Source: Bacteroidetes bacterium HGW-Bacteroidetes-2
GTDB lineage: Bacteria > Bacteroidota > Bacteroidia > Flavobacteriales > Flavobacteriaceae
NCBI GenBank assembly: GCA_002842575.1
Contig: PHDJ01000005.1
Coordinates: 1-64,000 of the forward strand
DNA: 64,000 nt
Direction of reading: 5' to 3'
The position numbers and the translations under genes were made by a program. Below the pieces are notes generated by a model. It was not told the DNA's origin, ran no database searches, and saw only the letters and a program-made list of their open reading frames with translations. This document shows positions 18,838 through 20,659 of the stretch, one piece after another. Position 1 is the first letter of the stretch. Every line of letters starts with the position of its first letter.

Positions 18838-18845
18838 GATCTTTG
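18838..18845 (+). promoter_or_regulatory. probable promoter -7 box of the asnB leader
   Basis: GATCTTTG differs from TAnnTTTG at one position. It is placed 24 nt before the leader-peptide start, as expected for the start of the attenuator transcript. Confidence 0.4.
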
Positions 18846-18868
18846 TAAAAAAAACAATACCATTTGAA

Positions 18869-18907
18869 ATGAATAACAACAATTTAAATAATAATAATTA
18901 TACCTAA
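18869..18907 (+). CDS. asnB leader peptide (Asn-rich, 12 residues)
   Basis: The frame reads MNNNNLNNNNYT and then TAA. Eight of the 12 codons are asparagine (six AAT, two AAC), in two blocks of four. It lies between a probable promoter and a strong terminator just upstream of asparagine synthetase. This is the layout of the his, trp and thr leader peptides: when charged tRNA-Asn is short, ribosomes would stall on the Asn codons. The stop codon touches the first arm of the pause hairpin. It is too short to be found by ordinary gene callers. The match of codon identity to the downstream gene makes chance unlikely even in A+T-rich DNA. Confidence 0.82.
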   Translation: MNNNNLNNNNYT

Positions 18908-18948
18908 CAAGAAAAACTTGTCAAGATACTCTGGCCTGTCAAGTTTTT
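18907..18948 (+). promoter_or_regulatory. pause and antiterminator pairings of the asnB attenuator
   Basis: Segment 1 (ACAAG, 18907-18911) pairs with segment 2 (CTTGT, 18917-18921) as a small pause hairpin. Segment 2 (AAAAACTTG, 18912-18920) can instead pair over 9 bp with segment 3 (CAAGTTTTT, 18940-18948), which is the 5' arm of the terminator. The two pairings exclude each other. A ribosome stalled on the last Asn codon (18896-18898) would cover segment 1 and favour the antiterminator. Confidence 0.75.
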
Positions 18949-18968
18949 AAATTTGATAGGCTTTTTTT
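18934..18968 (+). terminator. attenuator terminator before asnB
   Basis: A 13-bp stem, GCCTGTCAAGTTT / AAATTTGATAGGC (two G-T pairs), with a 2-nt loop followed by seven T. It ends 20 nt before the asnB ATG, so it must be bypassed for asnB to be transcribed from the upstream promoter. Confidence 0.88.
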
Positions 18969-18988
18969 ATAACTTTAAAACTTAAATT

Positions 18989-20659
18989 ATGTGTGGAATT
19001 GTTTGTGCATTTCGTTTAAAAGAATCGTCAGAATCCCTTCGCCCTCAGCTATTAGCTATGTCAAAATGCATCCGGCATCGGGGACCAGACTGGAGTGGCA
19101 TTTTCAATAATGACAAAACCATTATGGCACATGAACGTTTGGCTATTGTGGACCCTACTTCTGGAAAACAACCTTTGTTTAGTGATGACCATAATCTAGT
19201 ACTTGCTGCTAATGGCGAAATATACAACCACCAGCACTTGCGAAAACAATTTGAAGGTAGATATATCTTTCAAACAAAATCAGATTGCGAAGTAATACTT
19301 GCTCTTTATAAAGAAAAAGGCTCCACATTTTTAGATGAGCTCAATGGAATATTTGGTTTTGCGCTATATGATGTTCAAAATGACGCCTATTTTATTGCCC
19401 GTGACCATATGGGAATCATCCCCTTATATATGGGCTGGGATAAAAACGGCACTTTTTATGTTGCATCTGAATTGAAAGCATTAGAAGGTGTTTGTACTAA
19501 AATTGAACTATTTCCTCCTGGACATTATTTAGACAGCCGAGAAGGTGAATTAAAACAATGGTACAAAAGAGATTGGATGGAGTATGAAGCCGTAAAAGAT
19601 AATGCAACAAGTATTTCAGAAATAAAAACAGCTCTTGAAGCTGCTGTTCACCGCCAATTAATGAGCGATGTGCCTTATGGTGTTTTACTCTCTGGTGGTT
19701 TAGATTCTTCGATTACATCAGCGGTGGCTAAAAAATATGCCGAAAAACGTATAGAAAGCGATGATAAAGATGGCGCATGGTGGCCACAATTGCACTCTTT
19801 TGCTGTTGGATTAGAAGGATCTCCCGATTTAGCCGCTGCACAAAAAGTAGCAGCACACCTAGAAACTATTCACCATGAAATAAAATTTACAATTCAAGAA
19901 GGAATTGATGCTATTAGAGATGTTGTATATCATCTAGAAACGTATGACATTACAACCATTAGAGCTTCTACCCCAATGTATTTGATGGCAAGAGCTATAA
20001 AAGCTATGGGAATAAAAATGGTGCTTTCAGGAGAAGGAAGTGATGAAATTTTTGGAGGCTATTTATATTTCCATAAAGCGCCTAATGCCGAAGAATTGCA
20101 CAAAGAAACAGTAAGAAAATTAGACAAACTCCATATGTATGATTGCTTACGTGCCAATAAATCTCTAGCGGCTTGGGGTATTGAAGGCCGAGTACCGTTT
20201 CTGGATAAAGAATTTATGGATGTGGCAATGCGCATTAATCCGAAAGATAAAATGATTAATGGCGAACGCATGGAAAAATGGGTTCTTCGTAAGGCCTTTG
20301 AAGACATGCTTCCACATAGTGTTGCTTGGCGTCAAAAAGAACAATTTTCTGATGGTGTAGGTTACAGCTGGATTGATACTTTAAAAGAAATGGTAGCTCA
20401 AGAAGTAACAGATGAACAATTAGAAAACGCACAATACAAGTTTCCACTACAAACTCCAACTAGCAAGGAAGAATTTTATTACCGTTCTATTTTTGCAGAA
20501 CATTTCCCTAGCGATGCTGCCGCTATGTGTGTTCCTTCCGTGCCTTCTGTAGCTTGCAGTAGTCTTATTGCTTTAGAATGGGACGCTTCCTTTAAAAACT
20601 TGAACGACCCGAGTGGCAGAGCTGTAGCTAATGTCCATTCAGATGCCTATCAAAATTAA
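18989..20659 (+). CDS. asnB: Asparagine synthetase B (glutamine-hydrolysing)
   Basis: AsnB makes asparagine from aspartate, ATP and glutamine. The 556-residue protein starts MCGIV, giving the N-terminal nucleophile Cys2 of the class II glutamine amidotransferase domain (about 1-190). This is followed by the synthetase domain with the ATP pyrophosphate loop SGGLDSS (about 235) and GEGSDEIFGGY. The length and motifs match E. coli AsnB. Expression is very probably controlled by the Asn-codon leader and terminator immediately upstream. Confidence 0.97.
   Translation: MCGIVCAFRLKESSESLRPQLLAMSKCIRHRGPDWSGIFNNDKTIMAHERLAIVDPTSGKQPLFSDDHNLVLAANGEIYNHQHLRKQFEGRYIFQTKSDCEVILALYKEKGSTFLDELNGIFGFALYDVQNDAYFIARDHMGIIPLYMGWDKNGTFYVASELKALEGVCTKIELFPPGHYLDSREGELKQWYKRDWMEYEAVKDNATSISEIKTALEAAVHRQLMSDVPYGVLLSGGLDSSITSAVAKKYAEKRIESDDKDGAWWPQLHSFAVGLEGSPDLAAAQKVAAHLETIHHEIKFTIQEGIDAIRDVVYHLETYDITTIRASTPMYLMARAIKAMGIKMVLSGEGSDEIFGGYLYFHKAPNAEELHKETVRKLDKLHMYDCLRANKSLAAWGIEGRVPFLDKEFMDVAMRINPKDKMINGERMEKWVLRKAFEDMLPHSVAWRQKEQFSDGVGYSWIDTLKEMVAQEVTDEQLENAQYKFPLQTPTSKEEFYYRSIFAEHFPSDAAAMCVPSVPSVACSSLIALEWDASFKNLNDPSGRAVANVHSDAYQN

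Follow-up and report, generated by a model that had tools for sequence, protein, structure and literature searches.

An asparagine-codon leader and candidate transcription attenuator upstream of asnB in Flavobacteriaceae, with stem-unrelated counterparts within Flavobacteriales

The asnB locus and its leader region

The window analysed here, a stretch of 64,000 nucleotides from Bacteroidetes bacterium HGW-Bacteroidetes-2, carries a gene for glutamine-hydrolysing asparagine synthase B, asnB, whose product matches the family NF006949 (asparagine synthase B) with 940 bits against a cut-off of 499 and is the single match in the source genome when this is searched with the AsnB protein. The same genome encodes asnS (580 bits), and a direct route from the Asn pool to charged tRNA-Asn is therefore to be expected. 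A 2-oxoacid dehydrogenase gene on the same strand ends 85 nt before a short leader frame, and between this frame and asnB sits an intrinsic terminator (Table 1). hisG was not found in the source genome, which is 99.99% complete by estimate, suggesting histidine auxotrophy or a gap.

Table 1. Positions in the window of the leader, its pairing strands and asnB.
Feature	Position	Strand	Remarks
Putative -7 promoter element GATCTTTG	18838..18845	+	23 nt before leader ATG
Leader ORF MNNNNLNNNNYT	18869..18907	+	12 codons; ATG 18869-18871, TAA 18905-18907
1:2 (pause) hairpin ACAAG-AAAAA-CTTGT	18907..18921	+	Overlaps stop codon
Strand 2 AAAAACTTG, antiterminator 5' arm	18912..18920	+	Fully complementary to CAAGTTTTT
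Strand 3 CAAGTTTTT, antiterminator 3' arm	18940..18948	+	Within terminator 5' side and loop
Intrinsic terminator	18933..18968	+	12-13 bp stem, loop TTTA, seven T
asnB, glutamine-hydrolysing asparagine synthase B	18989..20659	+	Presumed controlled gene; 20 nt past T run

The leader peptide consists of Met, four Asn, Leu, four Asn, Tyr and Thr, so that Asn accounts for 8 of its 12 codons (18872-18883 and 18887-18898), and direct reading of the sequence agrees with the first-pass annotation, which had described a 12-residue frame with eight Asn codons directly before asnB. On both strands of the window no other ATG frame of 8-25 codons contains six or more Asn, and 60 dinucleotide shuffles of the window gave on average 0.25 such frames (maximum 3) and none with eight or more. 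The notion of a chance Asn frame was rejected on account of this uniqueness in the window and rarity in dinucleotide shuffles.

Three alternative pairings had been proposed to follow the frame, and two of them, the pause hairpin at its stop codon and the 9-bp antiterminator with its full complementarity, can be read directly from the sequence. The third, a 13-bp terminator followed by seven T, holds as to stem length and T run (18962-18968), whereas its start lies one base before the 18934 originally given, because the thirteenth pair is the G-U pair 18933-18962; the remaining 12 pairs run from 18934 to 18961. The fold of the leader region (-19.1 kcal/mol, z -3.5) and that of the terminator alone (-16.2 kcal/mol, z -5.4) were each equalled by 0 of 200 shuffles, and the antiterminator fragment alone is unremarkable (-8.2 kcal/mol, z -1.1; equalled by 27 of 200).

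The range 18838-18988 delimited by the first-pass annotation evidently takes in the putative -7 box. The motif GATCTTTG is a weak match to the Bacteroidota TAnnTTTG box, and no good -33 element was identified before the leader in the window. In the wider set of 48 aligned leaders described below, a TATTTG, GAnnTTTG or TAnnTTTR box lies 26-36 nt before the leader start in 24, by a hand count made without a chance control, and a strict TAnnTTTG occurs within 75 nt upstream of the leader in only 3. No strict TAnnTTTG was found between terminator and asnB in any of the 48 loci, an absence that is weak evidence against a transcription start downstream of 18968, because the upstream box itself is present in only 3. 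A perfect sigma-70-type promoter, TTGACA-16-TATAAT (12 of 12 positions), is found antisense to the leader (window 18897-18924, - strand). Bacteroidota promoters follow a consensus other than the sigma-70 type, so this match is probably a by-product of the leader sequence.

Distribution of the element among relatives

Two covariance models of the element, hereafter class A, were built from 14 (R1) and 48 (R2) sequences and searched in 397 Flavobacteriaceae genomes. R2 matches 40 of the 397 at 53.7 bits or more, so that at least 40 carry the element, and all 40 matches lie upstream of asnB, each with a frame of 3-10 Asn codons; the next match (L125, 49.4 bits) is a plain hairpin with no asnB. 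Since 39 of the 40 matched genomes contributed to R2, the independent result is the count obtained with R1, namely 38 genomes at 56.8 bits or more, at least five of which belong to the R1 building set. Twelve weaker R1 matches were inspected, of which two are members, already within the 40, and ten are plain hairpins that lack both a downstream asnB and an Asn run; one of these (L134) has a frame of 3 Asn in 13 codons. The possibility that the element has spread to other genes was rejected, given that each model has one match in the source genome and that the weak matches inspected outside the membership are plain hairpins. In several family genomes a palindrome close to AGACCTGTCAGGTTTTTAAAACCTGACAGGTCT recurs among such weak model matches (L124, L125, L126, L128, L129 and L131) and looks like a dispersed bidirectional terminator or a REP-like element.

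Class A is absent from most relatives. Among 80 named asnB loci, 12 carry it, scoring 65 bits or more with R1; as 11 of these were in the R1 training set and the twelfth has a leader identical to a training one, their scores are expected and the informative result is the gap to the other 68, the next score being 39.5 bits, elsewhere in its locus. The carriers are Aequorivita, Luteirhabdus, Thermobacterium, Planktosalinus, Pukyongia, Patiriisocius, a Marixanthomonas bin, L006 and four other Flavobacteriaceae, with leaders that include MIRFRLNNNNNNNNNNELP, MVRFNLNNNNNNNGNP and MLLANNNNNNTMP. In the other 68 loci no ATG frame of 8-25 codons within 320 nt upstream reaches 25% Asn, two of them (L013 with 7 nt and L062 with 174 nt) holding too little upstream sequence for this count. 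Four loci without class A (L012, L016, L020 and L032) have an unrelated terminator-like hairpin upstream of asnB. Among the 80, one of 13 Flavobacterium-labelled loci has an Asn leader, and this one, the metagenome bin L006, encodes an AsnB that falls outside the clade formed by the other 12.

Searches with R2 were extended to 395 genomes of the order and 395 of the class, sets that include family members and that were searched under stricter filters and E up to 1e-4. Beyond known members they returned L140, L141 and L142, which are hairpins with no asnB in their loci. As R1 and R2 are blind to the other leader classes described below, the lack of further matches in the order and class does not amount to a lack of Asn leaders.

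In every class A member examined the Asn frame, the terminator and the antiterminator co-occur before asnB, which is the outcome that the first-pass annotation had anticipated for a Flavobacteriaceae comparison, and a terminator kept without the Asn codons, named there as evidence to the contrary, was not encountered among the 48 aligned leaders.

Conservation of the stems and of the leader codons

The alignments underlying these comparisons comprise 14 and 48 rows; A2 omits L019, whose leader is identical to that of L011, and A4 omits L090, L084, L085 and named copies of the same genomes. The terminator (3:4) is paired in 98.8% of cells in both, with five double-change pairs in the 14 rows, where none of 500 shuffles equalled the covariation score, and with double changes at 9 of 10 pairs in the 48. 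The antiterminator (2:3) is paired in 98.4% of cells in the 14 rows, as against 24-65% when the register is slid, with no covariation above shuffles; in the 48 rows pairing is 98.7%, or 99.5% without L122, which is offset by one column in A4 and was counted with subtype 1, and double changes occur at one pair only (A-U 29, G-U 5, G-C 12).

RNAalifold added to the 14 rows a 1:2 hairpin spanning the stop codon. In the main subtype (32 rows) this stem is 93.8% paired and has one covarying pair (G-C 16, U-A 10, unpaired 6), and in the second subtype (16 rows) it displays no covariation. When double-change cells are counted, 0 of 2000 shuffles match the observed number for 3:4, 2:3 and main-subtype 1:2, a count that is inflated by the relatedness of the rows; when the number of pairs with a double change is taken instead, nearly all shuffles match the observed value for 2:3 and 1:2. 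Compensatory changes, which had been predicted for all three stems, are thus strong in the terminator, while in 2:3 and 1:2 they are confined to one position each.

An Asn-containing frame occupies the same place in all 48 aligned leaders, 47 of which start with ATG and one (L101) with GTG. In the 47 ATG leaders Asn makes up 316 of the 663 codons after the start, with 3-10 Asn per leader (five hold only 3 or 4). Counted back from the stop, codon -4 is Asn in 45 of 47 leaders, and codon -6 likewise in 45 of 47. The end of the stop codon lies 2 nt from strand 2 in 42 of 47 leaders, the leader in the window being among the five that depart from this spacing, with a longer one. The distance from the end of the match to asnB varies from 15 to 124 nt.

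The choice between the two Asn codons is uneven, with AAT used 232 times and AAC 84 times in the leaders and 411 and 327 times in the asnB frames of the same loci where sequence allows (odds 2.2, Fisher p ~5e-8, a value inflated by related rows). This excess would be expected if the leader read a property of tRNA-Asn other than its charging, for example queuosine at the wobble base, since unmodified tRNA would be slower on AAU. tRNA-Tyr is likewise a Q-tRNA, and the two most divergent class A leaders, L127 and L135, add Tyr-Tyr past the Asn run (NNNNYYAMP and NNNNNNYYPRR). However, the controlled gene makes asparagine and not queuosine, and the AAT bias may stem from local A+T content or from asnB codon bias, which makes a sensor of tRNA modification very unlikely.

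Ribosome occlusion and the proposed mechanism

The effect of a ribosome on the class A leader was calculated by folding the RNA left free of it, with the 3' edge placed 10-14 nt past the first A-site base (five assumed footprints). All 48 leaders form the antiterminator when the ribosome sits at Asn codon -4, whereas with a ribosome at the stop codon 4, 2, 0, 0 and 0 of 48 do so across the five footprints. The stop codon is therefore placed as an attenuator needs it, a terminating ribosome masking strand 2 and a stalled one leaving it free; since the strands were picked for their complementarity, the calculation speaks for consistency and is not proof. Without a ribosome the antiterminator forms in 47 of 48 leaders at equilibrium and 1:2 does not outcompete 2:3, so the class A 1:2 hairpin does not explain a low basal read-through.

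Taken together, the Asn frame with its nearly fixed spacing, the conserved and covarying alternative stems, the constant association with asnB and an asnS gene in the genome argue that the element is very probably a ribosome-mediated transcription attenuator of asnB that senses the supply of Asn-tRNA(Asn), and the classical attenuation reading put forward in the first-pass annotation finds support in the conserved frame, stems, spacing and gene linkage. We infer that a promoter precedes the frame, that the frame is translated, that ribosomes stall on it, that the hairpin terminates transcription and that the switch responds to Asn. Transcription would start just upstream of 18869, and when charged tRNA-Asn is plentiful the ribosome would pass the eight Asn codons, reach the stop and cover strand 2 (18912-18920), so that strand 3 would pair with strand 4 and the terminator would halt transcription ahead of asnB. 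Under asparagine shortage the ribosome would stall at the Asn codons and leave strand 2 free to capture strand 3 as the antiterminator, and RNA polymerase would read into asnB. Asparagine synthesis would in this manner probably be on only when asparagine is short.

Other leader classes before asnB and their history

Inspection of the sequence upstream of asnB, carried out independently of the class A model, revealed two further types of Asn leader. Class B, found in 21 of 22 loci of another Flavobacteriaceae genus, has leaders such as MIKNNNIRFNNNSLLT and stems that differ from those of class A: strand 1 lies inside the frame and pairs with the region that follows strand 2, strand 2 itself (GGTAG or AAGTAG) has CTACTT as its partner, and the terminator takes the form AAAAGGTCTACTT...AGTAGGCCTTTT. 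The 2:3 stem is 99.2% paired, with no double change and no covariation above shuffles; 3:4 is 98.8% paired with two double-change pairs (7 of 500 shuffles as high); and 1:2 is 86.3% paired with five double-change pairs (11 of 500) and a covariation score reached in 1 of 500 shuffles. RNAalifold, when unaided, recovers the terminator only. In the occlusion calculation the antiterminator forms in 21 of 21 leaders with the ribosome stalled at either Asn run, in 0 of 21 with the ribosome at the stop and in 1 of 21 without a ribosome, so that the predicted folding of class B, likewise calculated on strands picked for their complementarity, gives textbook switching.

The class B loci also bear on a rival account, in which the hairpin merely ends transcription of the 2-oxoacid dehydrogenase gene upstream, and an AT-rich spacer has produced the Asn frame by chance. 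That gene ends close to the leader on the same strand in the window, and 36 of 59 class A and B loci have a relative of it within the 1.5 kb upstream (10 more hold too little sequence). However, no such gene was found upstream at L004, L052 or any of the 21 class B loci, and the element is still there. In the aligned class A leaders the Asn frame persists with a mixture of AAT (232) and AAC (84) codons, stem 2:3 is kept, and the spacing from stop to strand 2 is nearly fixed; such a frame is also rare by chance in dinucleotide shuffles. A terminator serving only the upstream gene is hence highly improbable, and it was rejected because the element stays with asnB without that gene upstream.

Class C comprises Asn-codon leaders before asnB in 3 of 4 loci of another Flavobacteriales family (one genus, four genomes), in which strand 3, CCTGCC(GCA), finds its complement in GGCAGG or TGCGGCAG at the leader end; with three sequences class C is only tentative. 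The same codon choice is thus met in leaders with unrelated stems, which bears on whether the leader might be a general sensor of translation stress or antibiotics, similar to ermC, in which any ribosome stall opens asnB. Any stall on the leader Asn codons would indeed free strand 2, but the leader codons are above all Asn (316 of 663), the gene is asnB and classes B and C repeat that codon choice, so that such a general sensor is highly unlikely and sensing of Asn-tRNA(Asn) supply is preferred.

In a further sample of 29 loci, of which L172, without a start, was set aside, 5 of 28 asnB loci have an Asn leader (two class A, one B, two C) and 23 have none; L195 and L174 are without a leader. 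In a sample from another order (14 of 291 genomes, E up to 1e-200), none of the 14 asnB loci has an Asn frame together with a terminator. Two loci of this order (L202 and L203, family f99) have a terminator without an Asn frame, and here an apparent tRNA gene and a short terminator precede asnB.

Two quick asnB trees, supported by SH-aLRT only, were used to place the leaders. In the first (93 rows) 2 changes account for the distribution of the class A label, where shuffled labels require 22 on average, and the leader is missing from one clade of 67 rows, among them Maribacter, Flavobacterium and Lutibacter. In the second (65 rows, all classes) each of A, B and C has branches of its own, those of A at two places in the tree; leaderless rows are interspersed, and the distinction between leader and none needs 4 changes. 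The three classes share Asn-rich frames and switching logic, yet their strands 1, 2 and 3 are unrelated and their asnB clades are separate with leaderless genes among them. It is conceivable, at somewhat less than even chances, that attenuation of asnB by Asn sensing evolved on three or more occasions within Flavobacteriales, or was rebuilt there beyond recognition. Deep divergence with losses may be the alternative to an independent origin of the classes.

Relation to known attenuators and riboswitches

Leader-peptide attenuation is textbook knowledge, but as far as we know its documented cases cover few amino acids and come chiefly from Proteobacteria, Actinobacteria and some Firmicutes. The enterobacterial trp, his, thr, ilv, leu and phe leaders combine a frame rich in codons for the product with 1:2, 2:3 and 3:4 pairings and a U-tailed terminator. 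The asnB leader shares with them the codon-rich frame, the 2:3 and 3:4 pairings with a putative 1:2 hairpin, the U-tail and a stop codon that would let the ribosome cover strand 2, and differs in its amino acid (Asn), gene (asnB), lineage (Flavobacteriales) and leaders of 11-19 codons. To our knowledge no Asn-specific member of the leader-peptide attenuators has been known, and a literature search of partial coverage found no description of an Asn-specific leader peptide.

PMC1262725 reports predicted attenuators in Actinobacteria (trp, leuS, ilvB and cys leader frames), likewise from comparative prediction of leader peptides with alternative hairpins; those systems concern another phylum and other amino acids, and the main text contains neither 'asparag' nor 'asn'. 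In PMC9723704, strong clues were presented for leader-peptide attenuation before amino-acid biosynthesis operons of Flavobacterium psychrophilum, that is, in the same family and by the same class of mechanism as proposed for the asnB leader, and 'asparag' and 'asnB' do not occur in that main text. The searched text of PMC7366714, which mentions small frames in B. thetaiotaomicron that resemble leader peptides, and that of PMC2965389 are equally free of 'asparag'.

The mechanism class is known and the Asn specificity is, as far as the covered literature shows, new for leader-peptide attenuators. By all comparative tests run, and with the reservations given, the sequences point to a real, conserved Asn-codon attenuator of asnB. 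An Asn form in Bacteroidota, in three stem-unrelated versions before asnB, would extend the amino-acid repertoire of these switches, and three versions at one gene would show how readily they evolve. The leaders also open a way to study how asparagine levels are sensed in flavobacteria, and as a natural series they lend themselves to working out which parts of an attenuator it cannot do without.

T-box riboswitches likewise sense tRNA charging and control amino-acid genes by termination, and in a few species they control asnS, according to PMC2494555. Unlike the asnB leader, they bind tRNA directly without a leader peptide. Control of asnB by a T-box or another riboswitch is exceedingly improbable, as the Rfam search gave nothing at gathering score at the leader, the nine matches of a relaxed search there all lying far below their own gathering scores and none being a T-box, and as the PMC2494555 survey lists 0 T-boxes in seven Bacteroidetes/Chlorobi genomes. 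A T-box or other known RNA family was accordingly rejected for the leader. At gathering threshold the whole window has one Rfam match, away from the leader, namely RNase P RNA (RF00010) at 506-831 on the - strand, with 189.8 bits.
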